33,190 nucleotides of DNA from positions 1 to 33,190 of the IMG/VR virus record IMGVR_UViG_3300045534_000060, one strand, 5' to 3'. The notes beneath the pieces were generated by a model that saw only the letters and a program-made list of their open reading frames with translations, searched no databases and was not told the origin of the DNA. Below are positions 1 to 31,359 of the stretch, piece after piece. The translations under genes and the position numbers were made by a program. The first letter of the stretch is position 1, and each line of letters starts with the position of its first letter. This DNA is from a virus.

Positions 1-27
1 CCACACATACCCCCCCCCTGCAGGAAG

Positions 28-57
28 TATGCATGAATATGCATGGATATACATGAT
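28..57. repeat. Three tandem 10-bp repeats near the left edge
   Basis: Three consecutive decamers TATGCATGAA, TATGCATGGA and TATACATGAT are phased at exactly one helical turn. A run of nine C (10-18) and a CTGCAG palindrome lie just upstream. The third copy overlaps a small hairpin (GATAT 46-50 with ATATC 56-60). The phasing could suit a DNA-binding protein or a promoter-proximal element ahead of the structured RNA, but no function is shown. An ATG here opens a 60-codon frame that runs through the RNA stems and is not convincing. Confidence 0.5.
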
Positions 58-60
58 ATC

Positions 61-565
61 GGACGCATACGGGAATCTTTGGAAAGTTGTAGGGATTCCA
101 CCTGCCTTGTTTCGTCTCAAGTGTCGAATGCGACCCGCAAGGGTTGGGCAAGCGGAAACGCCCCTGAACGATTCGATACGATTGTATCCGCAAGGGTACG
201 GTAGTGACTGATACATACGCATTGTGGCATCCACCACTATGCGGTTTGGATTCGGGACGGAAGGTGTAGGTTGAATCCTACGTTGCGCTACCCTGCTAGA
301 CAGGAGGTAGTCATAAGATTGCAACGTGGCACTGTGATGTATGGTGCAAGAGTGATACCCTACGCTTTACGTAACGAGTGGAAAGTGTGAAGTAGCGACG
401 TACGCGGTAAACGGTGAAATATTCCTGCACACTTTCCTTCGGATTCTACGGAATCTTGCGAGATGAGGGGTAATGCGACTACCCTTGCGCCTAGTGGACG
501 TGGCGCGTAGTAACTACCACTAACAGATAGTTATGCCCGTGTTCACCGAAAGGTGAACGCGGGAT
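61..565 (+). ncRNA. Candidate large structured non-coding RNA (about 500 nt)
   Basis: No convincing coding frame, but many complementary stems. GGAATC 72-77 pairs with 94-99. 121-129 pairs with 171-179 (9 bp, one G-U), enclosing an ACCC-GCAA-GGGT hairpin (133-144) and a GCG-GAAA-CGC hairpin (152-161) extended by GGG/CCC. GTATCC-GCAA-GGGTAC is at 184-199 and CGCAT 218-222 pairs with ATGCG 239-243. GTAGG/CCTAC (266-281) has a T-loop-like TTGAAT loop. CGTTGC 281-286 pairs with GCAACG 321-326 around nested CTACC/GGTAG and CCTG/CAGG stems. GGAAAGTGTG 380-389 pairs perfectly with 428-437. A UACG-capped GATTC/GAATC hairpin is at 442-455, and a 12-bp GAAA-capped hairpin closes the element at 536-563. 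AGTGG 493-497 may pair with CCACT 517-521 as a pseudoknot. Size and phage setting recall the ornate GOLLD/ROOL class, but I cannot assign a family and the 5' end is uncertain. Confidence 0.6.
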
Positions 566-616
566 TTGACGGATTGTGTGTTCTAACCTTAACGCCCTAT
601 CGGGCACGGAGTGTAT

Positions 617-1018
617 ATGTCGAAGATTGAGAAGATTTCGCTTGACAAGTTTCGTTCTGCTGGGTTGCTCGATGCGTTTCTCTCCGCGTTGATGCGTGGA
701 ATCGAGAGTGGCGATGTGTCCATCGGAGATGATAAGCGTCTTAAGACGCGTGCTACTCTCCGCAGCATCGCGGGGATGATGTTCCTGTGGAATAAGCGGG
801 AAGTAAGCATCGCGGGTTTGCTTGCCGCAAAGAACGGATATTCAGAAGACAAGTTGTGTCTTCGTGGATCGGATTTCGTGAGTGTCGGAGCGGATTTCGT
901 TGAGGAGATTCTCACCGAGACTAATCCGTACATTCTGCCTGTGAGCAAGGCTAAGCCCAAGGTAGTGAAGGATAATCTTGGAGACTCTGCGGACGTGCTG
1001 TCTGCCTGCGGACTCTGA
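617..1018 (+). CDS. Hypothetical early protein, 133 aa
   Basis: First convincing gene of the early region. ATG 617 is preferred over GTG 611 because GGAG (608-611) lies five bases upstream of the ATG and includes the G of the GTG. A small GCCC-TATC-GGGC hairpin (594-605) sits just ahead of the ribosome site. The protein is soluble and mixed-charge, with helical segments (residues about 1-30 and 40-75), no cysteine cluster and no membrane segment. I do not recognise the family. It is followed by a strong GCAA hairpin (1037-1072), so it may form its own short transcription unit with the upstream RNA. Confidence 0.75.
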   Translation: MSKIEKISLDKFRSAGLLDAFLSALMRGIESGDVSIGDDKRLKTRATLRSIAGMMFLWNKREVSIAGLLAAKNGYSEDKLCLRGSDFVSVGADFVEEILTETNPYILPVSKAKPKVVKDNLGDSADVLSACGL

Positions 1019-1036
1019 TATATCGGACTCGCACTG

Positions 1037-1072
1037 TGGGGGAGTGTATGCCGCAAGGTATGCACTCCCCTA
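1037..1072 (+). terminator. Long GCAA-capped hairpin, terminator-like
   Basis: GGGGAGTGTATGCC (1039-1052), GCAA loop (1053-1056) and GGTATGCACTCCCC (1057-1070) form about 14 bp with two G-U pairs, extendable by two more. No uridine tract follows (TACTGTCTG), so it may be a terminator for the phage polymerase, an RNA processing signal or a stability element rather than a classical host intrinsic terminator. Confidence 0.5.
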
Positions 1073-1116
1073 CTGTCTGTGCCCGAATTAACCTCAACTG
1101 AAAGGTAGGTCTAACT

Positions 1117-4568: not shown

Positions 4569-4875
4569 TCATTGCGACTATATCATGGAGTGCAGTATCT
4601 TCTTTGATCTTGAGCATGGATCCATTGAGGATAACGCACACATCATTGCATCGGCTGTTGCTGCTGCAGGTTATGCCATTGACCTTGATGATTATGAGAA
4701 CGTATCCGACAACAAGTATGTTCTCTTTGTGTCCATTCCATTTGATATCTGGGATTACTCCGAGGATCCCGAGGATGTTGCGGATTCCTTGATTCGAGAT
4801 ATCATCAATGAGTCTGGTGTTGACATCGTGCTTGACAATCTTGTTGAATATAAGGAGAACAATAATGAACGCTGA
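4561..4875 (+). CDS. Hypothetical protein, 104 aa, acidic
   Basis: ATG 4561 with GGAGG (4549-4553). The segment EHGSIEDNAHIIASAVAAAG suggests a helix between two beta strands, followed by a long acidic region and an Asn/Glu/Arg tail, in the style of a small alpha-beta (ferredoxin-like or KH-like) domain. No recognised family. It overlaps the following paralogue-pair gene by 11 bases. Confidence 0.6.
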   Translation: MPNHCDYIMECSIFFDLEHGSIEDNAHIIASAVAAAGYAIDLDDYENVSDNKYVLFVSIPFDIWDYSEDPEDVADSLIRDIINESGVDIVLDNLVEYKENNNER

Positions 4876-6444: not shown

Positions 6445-6915
6445 ATGATTGACAATGATAGCATCGTTAAGTTCATGCGTGAGTTTGTCCTTGATACCGT
6501 CAAGGATACCAAGTATTCCGTTGAGGATTGCGTTGAGAACTACTTCATCAATGGAAACTTCAGCCTTTATGACCACATTGATTCGTGGGATATTCGAGAT
6601 GCAGTCCGATCCTACATGAATGACAACATGCATGAGATTGTACATATTGATGGGTGGGATATTCGAGATGCAGTCCGATCCTACATGGATGATAACATGC
6701 ATGAGATTGTACATGACGAGATGTCTGGACAGCGTATTGAGGAAATGGTCAGCGAGTATCTTGGCAATAGCACTGCTGTTCAGGATGCAATTGACAACTA
6801 TGATGATGTAGAGAAGTTCCTTCAGTCCCCTGTTGGACGTGAGTATCTTGCGGATGTCATTCTTACCGTGGTGTTTCCAAAGATCAGCGAGGTAATGAAT
6901 GCAGACAAAAAGTAA
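6445..6915 (+). CDS. Acidic protein with internal 23-residue duplication, 156 aa
   Basis: AAGGAG upstream of ATG 6445. Residues 45-67 and 68-90 are near-identical 23-residue units (core WDIRDAVRSYM and DNMHEIVH) encoded by a 69-bp tandem repeat. A looser C-terminal echo (EEMVSEYLGNS, VQDAIDNYDDV) suggests an originally helical-repeat protein. No known domain. The near-perfect nucleotide repeat points to very recent expansion. Confidence 0.7.
   Translation: MIDNDSIVKFMREFVLDTVKDTKYSVEDCVENYFINGNFSLYDHIDSWDIRDAVRSYMNDNMHEIVHIDGWDIRDAVRSYMDDNMHEIVHDEMSGQRIEEMVSEYLGNSTAVQDAIDNYDDVEKFLQSPVGREYLADVILTVVFPKISEVMNADKK
6577..6714 (+). repeat. Two tandem 69-bp direct repeats within a gene
   Basis: Units 6577-6645 and 6646-6714 differ at only four positions (TCG/GGG, AAT/GAT, GAC/GAT) and preserve the reading frame as 23 codons each. 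Confidence 0.9.
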
Positions 6916-7695: not shown

Positions 7696-10179
7696 ATGTC
7701 TTTATCTGATTTCTGTACAGGAAAGCAATGGCTTTCCCTGTCGTTTGAAGAACGTCAGCAACGTCTTACACTTAATTCTATCTTTGAAGAAGATATCTTC
7801 AACGAGTCTCTTCAGAAATACTGGGATAACTATGAGCATATCCCTTCAACATACGCACCTGAACAAGCATTGATCTTCCGTGTCGTTGACCATATCTCCG
7901 ATACCGTTGAGCAATACCTTGCTGATCTTCAGAGAAAGAATGTCGCTTGGGTCAATCCTATCTATAGGCTTGGACCTAGGCGTGTATCTGGTCTGTTGAT
8001 TACGGTATGTGCGGATACCATCCTTACCCAGAGACGCAAGTCAAATGAGTACGATGAGAACGGCAACAGGACGTATGCTCCCGTGTTGCAGCAGGATCTT
8101 GCGAGATCCATAGCCAACACCATACAGACAGCCGTTAACTATCAGGTATCAAGGTCAGAGAATGCTGGTGCATGGGTATTGGCAAGCAAGATCGTCAAGT
8201 CAAGGTGGACAAAGAGACAAGTCAAGGACTTCATCAAGTACCACAAATCTGACGATCATGTTAGGTTGACGAACAAGGAAAGATATTATCTTGGTCTAAA
8301 CCTTATGACCATACTTGAGAAGGCTAACATCATAGAGCTTCGTAAGTTCTGGGATGGTCCTACCTCAAGTCCCATAGCGGTATGCTTTACTCAGGAAGTA
8401 ACCGATGGATTGACAGAGGCTCACTCTGACTTCCTTACACGTGCGAAGATACGCTATCGTCCTATGATAGTGCCGCCTCGAAAGCATACCATTGAGATGT
8501 CTGGTGGTGTCCATACCGAACACCTAAGAAAGGGAATGGTTGACCGTGGCTATACGTACTTTCATGGAGAGGATTATGTAACTGAGTTCAAGGGAAGCGA
8601 ACCATCGCAGGGTGTTGTCGATGGCTTGAATGCGTTGATGTCCACCGAGTGGACTGTAAACCAACGTGTGCTTGATATCATGGAGAACCTATTCAAGAAC
8701 AACACACGTGTTGCAAACCTTCCACCATATGAGCTTGATCCCATCCTCATATCAGACAGGCAGGATGTGTCTGATCCAATCGAAGTCGAGAGACTGAAGA
8801 AGGAAAAGTCAGAGCTATGGTCTGAGTGGTATCAGAAGGAGAACGAAAGGATCAGGATGTGCCTTCGCCTTTCATTGGCTAAGGATCTATCGTCCTATGG
8901 TTTCTTCTACCATGTCTACACCTGCGATTTCAGGGGCAGGGCATATACGACAACGGATCTCTTGTCTCCGCAATCTGGAGATCATGATAGATCCCTGATC
9001 GTGTTTGCCAACCCTATGAAGCAGACTGGCAAGGGAAGATACTGGCTTAAGGTTCATGTTGCAAACCTATTCGATCAGGACAAGAAGTCATTCACGCAGC
9101 GTGTGCAATGGGTTGACAACAACATGAACATGCTTAGGTCAATCAATGACGATCCGTTTGGAACGATCAACCTGTGGGCTGATGACAAGAAGAGAAAGAA
9201 CCAATCCTTCCAACGTCTTGCCGCTGTGTTTGAGTTGTTCAGGACGGATGGCATGACCCAACTACCCATTGGAATGGATGGATCATGCAATGGAATCCAG
9301 CATTGGGCTGCCATTGCAAAGGATCCTGTAATCGGAAGAATGGTAAACCTAATGCCTGCATCCGAACCAAACGATGCATACGGTGTCGTTGCCTCTGCGG
9401 TAACAACCGACATGCTTCCACTAAACTACAGGGATCCATGGGTAACTATGTTCCTTGAGCACTGGAATGGAAGCATCTCAAGGTCAACAGTCAAGCGGGC
9501 TGTGATGACTGATCCCTATGGCGTGACAACCAGAGGAATAACGGATGGTCTTCTTAACGATGGGCATGTCGATTGGATAGACAAACCTATCAGGATCAAC
9601 GCTGCAAAAGAACTGACCAAGTACATACAGTCAGCCATGAATACTCTGCTTACCATTCCAAACCAAGGAAAGACATGGCTTAAGCAGGTTGCAAAGATTG
9701 CATCCGAAAAGGAAGTGCATCTTGAATGGACTACTCCCATCGGGTTCAAGGTAAGACACCAATACTACGGAAAGACAAACGGAATAGTAAACCTGCAATG
9801 CCTGACAACCAGGGTTCAGGTTCAGTTCAATGAGTTTGTAAGGGACGAAGTGAATGGAAGGGAAGCTCAGAATGGAATCTCTCCCAACTTCATACACAGC
9901 CTTGATGCATCGCATATGTTTGCCGTGATACTCAAGCTTGTTGAATGCGGGTGCGATGCGTTCTCATTCATACATGATTCGTATGGTGTTCATGCACCTA
10001 TGGTTGACACACTTAGGTCAATCACACAGGAAGAGTTCGTAAGGATTCACAAGACAAACCAACTTGAAGAGTTGCGTTCTCAGCTTGTTGAATATCTGGA
10101 TTGCGACTTGCCAAGCGTACCTAGCACGGGTGCATTGGACATATCAAGCGTGCTAGATAGCGAGTATTTCTTCCATTGA
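7696..10179 (+). CDS. T7-type single-subunit DNA-directed RNA polymerase
   Basis: 827 aa (T7 enzyme 883). Transcribes the middle and late phage genes from phage promoters. Motif A LPIGMDGSCNGIQHW with catalytic Asp528; motif B K600-R-A-V-M-T-D-P-Y608-G with the equivalents of T7 Lys631 and Tyr639; motif C FSFIHDSYG with Asp761. The T/DxxGR-like DFRGRAYT element lies upstream of motif A, and the C-terminus ends SEYFFH, comparable to the T7 FAFA foot. ATG 7696 has AAGGAG (7684-7689); a longer frame from 7672 would lack it. The leader 7631-7695 holds no gene. About 7 kb of early genes precede it, so host polymerase must transcribe that region first. Confidence 0.97.
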   Translation: MSLSDFCTGKQWLSLSFEERQQRLTLNSIFEEDIFNESLQKYWDNYEHIPSTYAPEQALIFRVVDHISDTVEQYLADLQRKNVAWVNPIYRLGPRRVSGLLITVCADTILTQRRKSNEYDENGNRTYAPVLQQDLARSIANTIQTAVNYQVSRSENAGAWVLASKIVKSRWTKRQVKDFIKYHKSDDHVRLTNKERYYLGLNLMTILEKANIIELRKFWDGPTSSPIAVCFTQEVTDGLTEAHSDFLTRAKIRYRPMIVPPRKHTIEMSGGVHTEHLRKGMVDRGYTYFHGEDYVTEFKGSEPSQGVVDGLNALMSTEWTVNQRVLDIMENLFKNNTRVANLPPYELDPILISDRQDVSDPIEVERLKKEKSELWSEWYQKENERIRMCLRLSLAKDLSSYGFFYHVYTCDFRGRAYTTTDLLSPQSGDHDRSLIVFANPMKQTGKGRYWLKVHVANLFDQDKKSFTQRVQWVDNNMNMLRSINDDPFGTINLWADDKKRKNQSFQRLAAVFELFRTDGMTQLPIGMDGSCNGIQHWAAIAKDPVIGRMVNLMPASEPNDAYGVVASAVTTDMLPLNYRDPWVTMFLEHWNGSISRSTVKRAVMTDPYGVTTRGITDGLLNDGHVDWIDKPIRINAAKELTKYIQSAMNTLLTIPNQGKTWLKQVAKIASEKEVHLEWTTPIGFKVRHQYYGKTNGIVNLQCLTTRVQVQFNEFVRDEVNGREAQNGISPNFIHSLDASHMFAVILKLVECGCDAFSFIHDSYGVHAPMVDTLRSITQEEFVRIHKTNQLEELRSQLVEYLDCDLPSVPSTGALDISSVLDSEYFFH

Positions 10180-11770: not shown

Positions 11771-12314
11771 TCGTATCAAGAATATCATCACCAACACGCT
11801 TGATGTCAAGTGGTCTAACCTCCTGAAGCCAGACACCATGTTTGGCGACGGCAGTGCAAACCACAACATCACCGTTGTCTATACCCCTGAGCTTGAGACT
11901 GTGCTCATGGGCATTGCAAAGGAGAACGGAGCAAAGAAGATCAATGGTCTGTATGAGAAGGATGGTGTCAAGACCATCAAGTTCAAGTCCAAGACCCACA
12001 TCGACAAAGGTGCATTCCCCTGTCAGGACAGCACTGGTCAGTATACTGACGTTGTTCCCTTTGGTGGCGACACCGTTCGTCTCAAGCTTGCTCCTGCCTT
12101 GATTGTCAAGGGTGCAAGCAAGTCAATGTCGTTCTATCTCAACGGTGTTCAGATCGTTCAGAAGAACTCAACCGATCCTTCTGCAAAGGTAAACGGTTTC
12201 GATTCGATTGAGGGAGGATATGTCGGCAACCATGTTGACCGACCTGTAAAGTCAGAGGCTGCTCCTATTGCCCAGACTTCCCCAGCGATCACCGATTCTG
12301 ACATTCCCTTCTAA
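11763..12314 (+). CDS. Single-stranded DNA-binding protein
   Basis: 183 aa, the counterpart of T7 gp2.5. The core includes VKTIKFKSKTH, a GDTVRLKLAPALI strand and MSFYLNGVQIVQKN, typical of phage OB-fold SSBs of this group. A disordered linker (about 150-175) ends in ITDSDIPF, closely like the bacterial SSB tip DDDIPF that recruits host repair proteins; T7 gp2.5 also ends in an acidic tail with Phe. Coats ssDNA during replication and recombination. ATG 11763 has AAGGAG (11747-11752). Directly precedes the resolvase. Confidence 0.85.
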   Translation: MPDRIKNIITNTLDVKWSNLLKPDTMFGDGSANHNITVVYTPELETVLMGIAKENGAKKINGLYEKDGVKTIKFKSKTHIDKGAFPCQDSTGQYTDVVPFGGDTVRLKLAPALIVKGASKSMSFYLNGVQIVQKNSTDPSAKVNGFDSIEGGYVGNHVDRPVKSEAAPIAQTSPAITDSDIPF

Positions 12315-13236: not shown

Positions 13237-13241
13237 TATCT

Positions 13242-13332
13242 GGGCGTTTAGCATCTGGGTATGCAATCCTGCTTATAACAGGACTTAGTGGCCGATTACC
13301 GCGAGAGGTGGGTTCGATTCCCTCAACGCCTA
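13242..13332 (+). tRNA. tRNA with anticodon UAU (AUA) and long variable arm
   Basis: Acceptor GGGCGTT pairs with AACGCCT (13325-13331; G-U first pair), A73. D-arm GCA/TGC with GGG in the loop; anticodon stem TCCTG/CAGGA around C-T-TAT-A-A (13272-13278). A long variable arm has stem 13288-13291/13299-13302; T-arm loop TTCGATT with one U-U mismatch. The anticodon reads AUA Ile, but the long variable arm is the hallmark of Leu/Ser/Tyr tRNAs. Two bases rather than one separate the D and anticodon stems. No encoded CCA. Isotype is therefore uncertain. Confidence 0.75.
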
Positions 13333-13336
13333 TTAT

Positions 13337-13409
13337 GCCAAGGTAGACCAACGGCAGAGTCATCGCTCTCAAAATGCGATCAGTGTGGGTTCGACTCCCA
13401 TCCTTGGTA
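13337..13409 (+). tRNA. tRNA-Leu(CAA)-like, short variable loop
   Basis: Acceptor GCCAAGG/CCTTGGT with A73; D-stem GAC/GTC with GG in the loop. Anticodon stem 13363-13367/13375-13379 has a T-T mismatch closing the loop C-T-CAA-A-A. Variable loop is only five bases. T-arm GTGGG-TTCGACT-CCCAT. The anticodon CAA reads UUG (Leu), yet bacterial tRNA-Leu has a long variable arm. A shifted reading of the mismatched loop could make the anticodon UCA, so isotype needs care. Confidence 0.7.
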
Positions 13410-13413
13410 CTGC

Positions 13414-13486
13414 GGTTCCGTAACTCAATTGGTAGAGTAGCGGACTTTTAATCCGTTAGTTATGGGTTCAAGTCCCATCGGAACCA
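13414..13486 (+). tRNA. tRNA-Lys(UUU), CCA encoded
   Basis: Clean cloverleaf: acceptor GGTTCCG/CGGAACC, standard D-arm with GG, anticodon stem GCGGA/TCCGT around C-T-TTT-A-A, T-arm ATGGG-TTCAAGT-CCCAT, A73. The DNA continues with CCA at 13487-13489, so the 3' end is genome-encoded. Reads AAA/AAG. Confidence 0.95.
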
Positions 13487-13491
13487 CCATT

Positions 13492-13565
13492 ATACCTGTA
13501 GCTCAGATGGATAGAGCAACAGCCTTCTAAGCTGTTGGTCGGTGGTTCGAGTCCACCCAGGTATG
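13492..13565 (+). tRNA. tRNA-Arg(UCU)
   Basis: Acceptor ATACCTG/CAGGTAT (7 perfect pairs), G73, D-arm with GG, anticodon stem ACAGC/GCTGT around C-T-TCT-A-A, T-arm GGTGG-TTCGAGT-CCACC. Reads AGA/AGG, which are the dominant Arg codons of the right half of the window. Confidence 0.95.
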
Positions 13566-13581
13566 TTAAAGGAGATAACAC

Positions 13582-22827: not shown

Positions 22828-23332
22828 AATGATAGCCAATAGCTTTACAGCTTCCAATCCAACCTCCATTACCGTGGAGCGTTATACTTATGATCTTCCA
22901 AATCAGGTTAAGATCAGAACTGGAAAGCATGGCACACCAAAGAAAGCAACCGAAGGTTCCGCTGGGTTTGACCTTAAGGCTGACTTAATCGAAAGAATTA
23001 CAATAAACCCAGGAGAAACATGCCTAGTATCCACAGGAACTAGCATGGAATTACCGTTAGGAATGTGTGCATTCATCCTACCAAGATCAGGTCTAGCCCT
23101 CAAGAAGGGCATCACTATCCCAAACAGTCCAGGTCTTATTGACTCAGACTACCGTGGGGATATCTGTGTGATCCTGAGAAACGAAGGTACCGAGCCATTT
23201 GTCGTAGAAGACGGAGACCGAATAGCTCAGTTGATGATTGTTTCTTTTATAGCTCCGTCATTTATTACAGTGGATGAACTTAACCGCACAAGTAGAAACC
23301 GTGGCGGCTTTGGATCCACAGGCATGGGATGA
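22811..23332 (+). CDS. dut: dUTPase (deoxyuridine triphosphate nucleotidohydrolase)
   Basis: 173 aa with an N-terminal extension of about 30 residues. All five trimeric dUTPase motifs in order: AGFDLKA, PRSGLALKKG, GLIDSDYRGDI, GDRIAQLMI and NRGGFGSTG. Converts dUTP to dUMP, preventing uracil in DNA and supplying ThyX. ATG 22811, 17-base overlap with the exonuclease gene. Confidence 0.96.
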   Translation: MKLKTEMIANSFTASNPTSITVERYTYDLPNQVKIRTGKHGTPKKATEGSAGFDLKADLIERITINPGETCLVSTGTSMELPLGMCAFILPRSGLALKKGITIPNSPGLIDSDYRGDICVILRNEGTEPFVVEDGDRIAQLMIVSFIAPSFITVDELNRTSRNRGGFGSTGMG

Positions 23333-23333
23333 T

Positions 23334-25214
23334 ATGAATACGTTTGAAAACTTTATTGCCCTTAGCAGATACTCAAGATGGATTGAGTCTGAGGGTAGAC
23401 GGGAAACATGGGAAGAGACGGTTGACCGCTGGTGGAACTACTTCACTGGCAAGGAGCCAGCTCTTCTTGAGCGACCCGACATCAAGGAAGCAGTCCTCAA
23501 CAGAGAGGTGTTTCCAAGCATGCGCGCACTTATGACAGCTGGTCCAGCATTGGACAGGGATCATACTGCGCTATACAACTGCAGCTACATTGAGGTGGAT
23601 GCAGTCGAGGCTTTCTCAGAGCTTCAATATATCCTGATGTGTGGAACTGGAGTCGGTTTCTCAGTCGAGCGAAGATGCATTGAGAAACTACCTGTCGTTC
23701 CACAGTCAATCAAAAGAGAACAGGATGTAGTAATTGCCGTACCAGATAGCAGGGAAGGCTGGTGCGATTCACTTCGCCAGCTTATGATGCATCTGTACAA
23801 CGGCATCCACCCAACGTGGAATCTATCAAACATACGTCCAGCTGGCGCACGTCTAAAGACGTTTGGCGGCAGGGCATCTGGACCAGCTCCTTTGGAAGCT
23901 GTGTTCAAGTTTGTGGTAGGTACCTTCAACAAGGCAAGAGGACGCAGACTTACAGCACTAGAGTGCCACGATATTTGTTGCGTCATCGCCCAATCCGTAA
24001 TCGTAGGTGGTGTCAGGCGATCAGCAATGATCTCCCTGTCAGACCTAGACGATCAGGAGATGGCACACTGCAAGTCAGGCAACTGGTGGGAAGCGCACGG
24101 CTATCGTGCTCTTGCTAACAACTCCGCTGTATATACAACCAAGCCAACCCTTGGAAGATATCTTCAGGAGTGGACATCGCTGTACAATTCGTTCAGCGGT
24201 GAACGCGGAATCCTAAACAGAGAAGCCTTGCAGAAGGTATGCTCACGTGTAGGACGAGAAATACCAGATGATTGTCACTTGGGTACGAATCCATGCTCTG
24301 AGATCATACTCAGACCAATGGAATTCTGCAACCTCTCGACAATCGTAATCAAGGAAAACGACAATAAGATGGACATCAGGCGAAAGCTTGAGATGGCAAC
24401 CATCCTTGGAACAATCCAATCAAAGTTCACGTACTTCCCATATCTCCGAAAGAAATGGAAGAAGAACTGCGAGGAAGAAAGACTTCTTGGTGTCTCTATG
24501 ACTGGCATCTTCGACAATGCCTTCACAAGCGGTCGTGTCAGTCCTTATGATCTTATAGAATTCCTTCAGGCTTTGCGTGACGTAGCTCAGGAAGTGAATA
24601 TAAGATGGGCGATGAAGATCGATACCGAACCATCCAAGGCAATCACATGCGTCAAGCCAGAGGGAACAACCTCATGCTTGGCTGGCTGTGCTTCAGGTCT
24701 TCACCCACAGTATGCACCCTACTATATCCGCAGGGTAAGGTTGGATAAGAAGGATCCATTGTACAGATTGATGAAGGATCAAGGCGTTCCTTGCGAGGAT
24801 TGCGTCATGAATCCAGACTCAACCGCTGTATTCTCATTTGCAATGTCTGCTCCACCTGGAGCAAAGACAACACAGACACTTGATGCAGAGACTCACCTGA
24901 TACTCTGGCGTATCTACGCAGACTATTACTGTGAGCACAAGCCATCGGTGACAATCAACTATACAGACGCGGAATTCATGCGTCTTGGCGCGACCGTATA
25001 CGAGCAGTTCGACAGCATCTCTGGCGTGTCCTTCCTTCCAAAGGCAGAGCACACGTATCAACAAGCACCGTTCGAGGAGATCACCGAGGAGCAATACCTT
25101 GCCTTTCCAAAGGTTGAGGTTGACTTCTCGTTGCTGTACTTGTATGAAACCGAAGATACCACGAAGGCTAGTCATGAACCAGCTTGCACCGCAGGAGGGT
25201 GTGTAATTGTATAA
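23334..25214 (+). CDS. Class II (B12-dependent) ribonucleoside-triphosphate reductase
   Basis: 626 aa. Reduces NTPs to dNTPs with adenosylcobalamin, oxygen-independent. Redox Cys83 in YNCSYIEV, VGFSVERR, the T-N-P-C-S-E block with Cys321, CVKPEGTTS, an SVTINYTDAEF-type loop and C-terminal ACTAGGC with Cys618/Cys623 thiol exchange pair typical of monomeric RTPR. ATG 23334 (MNTFENFIALSRY) is preferred. An ATG at 23274 would overlap dut by 59 bases and add 20 unsupported residues; neither has a strong ribosome site. Requires host cobalamin. Confidence 0.95.
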   Translation: MNTFENFIALSRYSRWIESEGRRETWEETVDRWWNYFTGKEPALLERPDIKEAVLNREVFPSMRALMTAGPALDRDHTALYNCSYIEVDAVEAFSELQYILMCGTGVGFSVERRCIEKLPVVPQSIKREQDVVIAVPDSREGWCDSLRQLMMHLYNGIHPTWNLSNIRPAGARLKTFGGRASGPAPLEAVFKFVVGTFNKARGRRLTALECHDICCVIAQSVIVGGVRRSAMISLSDLDDQEMAHCKSGNWWEAHGYRALANNSAVYTTKPTLGRYLQEWTSLYNSFSGERGILNREALQKVCSRVGREIPDDCHLGTNPCSEIILRPMEFCNLSTIVIKENDNKMDIRRKLEMATILGTIQSKFTYFPYLRKKWKKNCEEERLLGVSMTGIFDNAFTSGRVSPYDLIEFLQALRDVAQEVNIRWAMKIDTEPSKAITCVKPEGTTSCLAGCASGLHPQYAPYYIRRVRLDKKDPLYRLMKDQGVPCEDCVMNPDSTAVFSFAMSAPPGAKTTQTLDAETHLILWRIYADYYCEHKPSVTINYTDAEFMRLGATVYEQFDSISGVSFLPKAEHTYQQAPFEEITEEQYLAFPKVEVDFSLLYLYETEDTTKASHEPACTAGGCVIV

Positions 25215-31318: not shown

Positions 31319-31327
31319 TTGTATACG

Positions 31328-31359
31328 CCTCTTCCCCCTTAGTTGGGGGAGGAGGTTTT
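31328..31359 (+). terminator. Intrinsic terminator after the major capsid gene
   Basis: CCTCTTCCCCC (31328-31338) and GGGGGAGGAGG (31345-31355) form an 11-bp G-C-rich stem (one G-U) with a TTAGTT loop, followed by TTTTC. Position between capsid and gp11-type genes matches the T7 late terminator, which adjusts capsid to tail expression. Confidence 0.85.

Follow-up and report, generated by a model that had tools for sequence, protein, structure and literature searches.

In the well-studied layout of phage T7, positions 1-924 at the left end are without genes and contain host promoters at 498, 626 and 750, ahead of gene 0.3. RNase III cleaves the early transcripts immediately before this gene. 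The T7 leader between 498 and 924 folds at a z-score of -3.7 and carries a perfect boxA at 813, an element with a role in antitermination in T7 (PMC3709561). Large phage-borne RNAs with many stems are represented by GOLLD and ROOL, both of which are often located near tRNA islands, and many GOLLD members are over 800 nt in length (PMC12286853).

The stretch of DNA analysed here, referred to as the window, is a virus record of 33,190 bp with a T7-like gene set comprising RNA polymerase (RNAP), DNA polymerase, portal, capsid assembly, major capsid and tail tube genes, and it also encodes a primase/helicase. Every predicted gene of the window lies on the + strand, and the left-end leader reads on the same strand. 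Relatives of the RNAP are few in IMG/VR and those of the primase are many; the fuller relative contigs, found via the primase, span 61-67 kb, so that the window amounts to roughly half a genome. The T7-like phage from which this fragment derives is uncultured, and a search of genome contigs with the RNAP for a prophage or host link gave no match.

A sequence-only reading of this DNA had described positions 61-565 at the left end as gene-free and elaborately folded, and in both respects it was borne out. The earliest credible open reading frame begins at 617, frames of at least 25 aa in the leader have no convincing counterpart among related leaders, and no conserved protein frame was found through the region. 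The helices that had been named form in the thermodynamic ensemble with mean pair probabilities of 0.79-1.0, the GNRA and UNCG tetraloops are present as GCAA at 137-140 and 190-193 and as UACG at 447-450, and the 12-bp GAAA hairpin at the 3' end is likewise predicted (Table 1). In the leaders, GNRA or UNCG loops account for 6 of 36 on the + strand versus 1 on the - strand, which is suggestive.

Table 1. Features at the left end of the window (window coordinates; z, folding z-score; P, pair probability)
Feature	Position	Strand	Remarks
C-run at the start of the contig	10-18	+	probably the final portion of the conserved C-rich terminus
Structured leader without genes, upstream of gene 1	20-616	+	z -5.0 (597 nt), -4.1 over 1-616; no conserved frame
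AT-rich stretch in hairpin GUAUGC/GCAUAC, repeated ATGCAT	27-70	+	P >0.8; no sigma-70 match
Leader motif CCTGCCTTGTTTCG, 14 nt, T-rich, common to relatives	101-114	+	weight matrix
Multi-branch helix 121-129/171-179 with GCAA-capped arm 133-144	121-179	+	P 0.98
Hairpin capped by GCAA	184-199	+	P >0.8
Hairpin CGCAUUGUGG/CCACUAUGCG	218-243	+	P 0.86
Long-range helix 262-269/360-367 around 281-286/321-326	262-367	+	P >0.8 and 0.79
10-bp helix GGAAAGUGUG/CACACUUUCC, arms 380-389/428-437	380-437	+	P 0.83
Hairpin capped by UACG	442-455	+	P >0.8
12-bp GAAA hairpin (536-547/552-563), followed by AUUUG	536-563	+	P 1.0
Gene 1, 133 aa, fast-evolving	617-1018	+	19-29% identity with counterparts in L002, L003 and L004
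17-bp hairpin following gene 1 and preceding gene 2	1036-1073	+	kept in L003 at 941-976

The 505-nt fold is more stable than its shuffles on the + strand (z -5.0) and on the - strand (z -3.8), with - strand values ranging from -3.8 to -5.2. Six stems pair perfectly over 10 bp or more, compared with 2.2 ± 1.6 in shuffles, and stems of 8-9 bp are just mildly above the shuffled level. Stability alone is little proof, because 6 of 81 equal-length tiles elsewhere in the window match or exceed the excess stability of the region, several of them coding; the 200-nt windows of the region (z -1.6 to -4.3) likewise fall inside the spread of the genome (mean -1.36, sd 1.31). The leader of the window cannot be aligned with any other leader, so that its structure is a prediction from folding. 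No relative of it was found by a DNA search of named phages and plasmids or with gene 1 as the query, and an exact 23-mer from it was absent from the viral contigs searched. The equally stable tiles, the near-background number of 8-9 bp stems and the lack of a homologue would all suit an ordinary spacer that carries early promoters and whose stems are functionless, as in any sequence of the genome. This explanation is nevertheless highly improbable, given the surplus of longer perfect stems, the compensatory changes in L198 and L200 described below, and the folding of the family as a whole: leader z-scores are -5.0 for the window and -1.2 to -6.9 for the others, compared with -1.76 ± 1.13 for 24 pieces of coding sequence. 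As a group, the leaders fold better than coding sequence.

In 15 contigs a conserved C-rich sequence (TTAGGKRTCRRRAATTW..CCCCC..CCCCC) lies after the last late gene and ahead of the first early gene, and in relatives it immediately precedes the leader. This sequence is probably the genome terminus, which would place the physical left end of the window at the C-run with which it starts; contigs L003 and L004 likewise start within the C-rich stretch. Every relative genome examined has a gene-free leader of 140-715 nt between the C-rich terminus and gene 1, with lengths of 143-195 nt in L002, L004, L090, L100 and L194 and of 340-715 nt in the remaining genomes. Conservation is lowest in the leader, the adjoining terminus being conserved, as illustrated by L092 and L093, which are 83% alike as far as the terminus, and by L088 and L089, which are 71% alike as far as the same point, both pairs being unalignable beyond it. 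Directly after the terminus, palindromic GTTATCGG hairpins occur in several relatives.

L198 and L200 are the sole pair for which an informative alignment extends through a long leader; the leaders of L193 and L195 are too alike to be informative on a shared fold, and those of L088 and L089 yielded no common fold. The consensus energy of L198/L200 lies at z -7.6 relative to column-shuffled alignments, and 22 pairs have changed on both sides compared with 9.8 ± 2.7 in the shuffles, none of 100 shuffles reaching 22; as the alignment has two rows and the shuffle, although it preserves column classes, does not retain every local feature, this covariation is strong but not final. Because the compensatory changes exceed those of every shuffle, the structured leader RNA is taken as real in this phage group, and such leaders can evidently experience genuine selection on RNA structure although they diverge in sequence more rapidly than the genome around them. 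L198 and L200 share a 127-nt core with a four-way junction at 91% identity, and a covariance model of this core (R1) had no match in the window or in other leaders. For the window and L003, the consensus fold reaches z -5.1, with much of its strength apparently in the terminal hairpin, and compensatory pairs are not in excess (28 vs 29.8).

The position of the leader beside the C-rich terminus, conserved in the 15 contigs, the palindromic hairpins that follow the terminus in several relatives and the good folding of the - strand might together point to an element that works at the level of DNA, in which inverted repeats by the terminus would serve concatemer processing, packaging or the start of replication and RNA folding would be a by-product. 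We regard this as very unlikely. The L198/L200 consensus folds better on the + strand (-147.6) than on the - strand (-135.2) and includes G-U pairs, and it is the terminus that is conserved, whereas the leader is conserved least.

Two elements of the window leader recur in relatives. The first is the 14-nt motif, which was originally chosen by eye among enriched words and then represented by a weight matrix built from the leaders of other phages, the window being left out; its occurrence in the leader is the best + strand site of the 33 kb and the sole site at its score on either strand. The motif is absent from L088, L089, L100 and L193. The second is the terminal 12-bp hairpin, which lies 53 nt before gene 1 and resembles hairpins in L003 (465-494) and L087 (9362-9391), such hairpins standing 46-63 nt before gene 1; in the alignment of the window with L003 the terminal stem is in the same register. 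It is a candidate for the 3' boundary of the leader RNA, as a processing or terminator hairpin. Gene 1 thus has a hairpin on either side, this one before it and the 17-bp hairpin after it, the latter a possible site of processing or termination. Each locus has 0-3 terminator-like hairpins on the + strand, and all ten loci together have just 1 on the - strand.

Hairpins of the same class also occur at 31327-31356 in the window and at the right ends of L002, L088 and L089. The one in the window is a 12-bp hairpin with a U tail directly after the major capsid gene, a place that is occupied in T7 by the T-phi terminator. The right ends of L002 (1761-2280), L088 and L089 contain some 420-520 nt of noncoding sequence downstream of the last late gene, whose strongly conserved fold (z -12.3 vs column shuffles) closes with a hairpin carrying a CC-UAAC-GG loop and a UUUC tail.

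That terminator-like hairpins are rare, yet one closes the leaders of the window, L003 and L087, and that its class resembles the hairpins after the capsid gene and at these right ends, would be expected if the region encoded a separate noncoding RNA of ~500 nt (~60-565) that ends at the 536-563 hairpin and acts in trans as the first product of the phage, for instance to take over the host or to counter its defences. The core common to L198 and L200 would also accord with such an RNA, but it is found in no other leader; furthermore, the U-tract that follows the window hairpin is poor and relatives manage with leaders of ~150 nt, which makes a separate RNA unlikely. The more general proposal, that this group of ~65-kb phages of the T7 kind makes a discrete, rapidly diverging structured RNA first, closed by a hairpin of the terminator class, directed in trans against the host and reshaped in each lineage, is decidedly unlikely.

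The sequence-only reading had also proposed that the region may be GOLLD, ROOL or a new class of giant RNA. The window leader is like GOLLD in being phage-borne, large and rich in stems, and like ROOL in being phage-borne, ~500 nt long and equally rich in stems. However, an Rfam scan of the region returned no family at its gathering score and none plausible up to an E-value of 10, and scans of the region together with its relatives identified no large-RNA family. GOLLD was rejected for lack of an Rfam match, because the leader of ~600 nt stays below 800 nt and because the tRNA genes (13241-13566) are 13 kb away; ROOL was rejected for lack of a match and because the leader is not near the tRNA cluster, and unlike ROOL the leaders have no architecture that is conserved across relatives. 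The tRNA cluster itself consists of four genes and, at 80-94% in relatives, ranks with the most conserved sequences in the window. A new class is unproven and is countered by a leader that cannot be aligned, by the 140-715 nt range in relatives and by the T7 leader, which is alike in layout and in fold excess. What stands of the original proposal is a gene-free, folded phage left end that is probably made as RNA, and what falls is its assignment to a known large RNA such as GOLLD or ROOL. Since the Rfam models and the genomic context exclude GOLLD and ROOL, the region is viewed as a version of a known type of element that is longer and evolves faster, the best reading being a leader RNA that is unusually long and fast-evolving.

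The element in question is the early leader of T7, which extends from the A1-A3 promoters to gene 0.3. As in T7, a gene-free tract of several hundred nucleotides separates the left end of the T7-like window sequence from its first early gene and stops just short of that gene; it lies on the same strand as all genes and folds beyond shuffles (z -4 to -5 in the window and -3.7 in T7). Unlike that of T7, the window leader lacks a recognisable promoter or boxA of the E. coli type, and it differs further in its longer chain of hairpins, its own 14-nt motif and the lack of sequence similarity. No sigma-70-like promoter was found in positions 1-616, a consensus that may not be of the host's type, and a repeat search for phage promoters gave nothing clear; the AT-rich stretch near the left end (Table 1) is a possible early promoter region. 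The E. coli boxA is absent from the window leader (best site with 4 mismatches), and here too the consensus may not be that of the host. In the leader of L087 (G014), GGTTCTTTGACAAC near 9082 (gene orientation) is one mismatch away from general boxA forms.

The left-end region very probably encodes a heavily folded leader RNA before the first gene in a T7-like layout, and by analogy with T7 we consider it on balance probable that this leader acts in cis. In such a scheme, transcription by the host RNA polymerase would begin close to the left end and pass through 500-600 nt of successive hairpins and branched helices before reaching gene 1. The terminal 12-bp hairpin would mark the 3' boundary of the leader, either as a processing site of the RNase III type or as a partial terminator, and the leader might let the polymerase through, like the boxA-bearing leader of T7, and/or protect and process the early message. 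The 14-nt motif would be the likeliest recognition signal. Promoter, processing and antitermination are assigned to the window leader by inference. An apparently exotic giant RNA is in this way tied to the layout of the T7 leader, and it makes antitermination or early RNA control testable in uncultured phages of the T7 type.

Several further observations were made in the window and its relatives. A ribonucleotide reductase of class II (B12-dependent type) is encoded at 23274-25214 of this T7-like phage, a tandem duplication of 69 nt with copies 93% alike lies within a gene at 6574-6711, and the genes starting at 4865 and 5230 are paralogous. The gene-poor stretch 1596-1831 contains hairpins at 1668-1697 and 1731-1755 as well as a T-arm-like CACGGGTTTGATTCCCGTG, and may hold a degenerate tRNA-like remnant. 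In the early region of L003, a type II hammerhead ribozyme was detected at 1297-1364 (45.6 bits, above gathering), and L193 carries a pistol ribozyme at 12092-12168 on the - strand (57.3 bits), ~1.2 kb downstream of the start of gene 1; small self-cleaving ribozymes may recur in the early regions of these phages.
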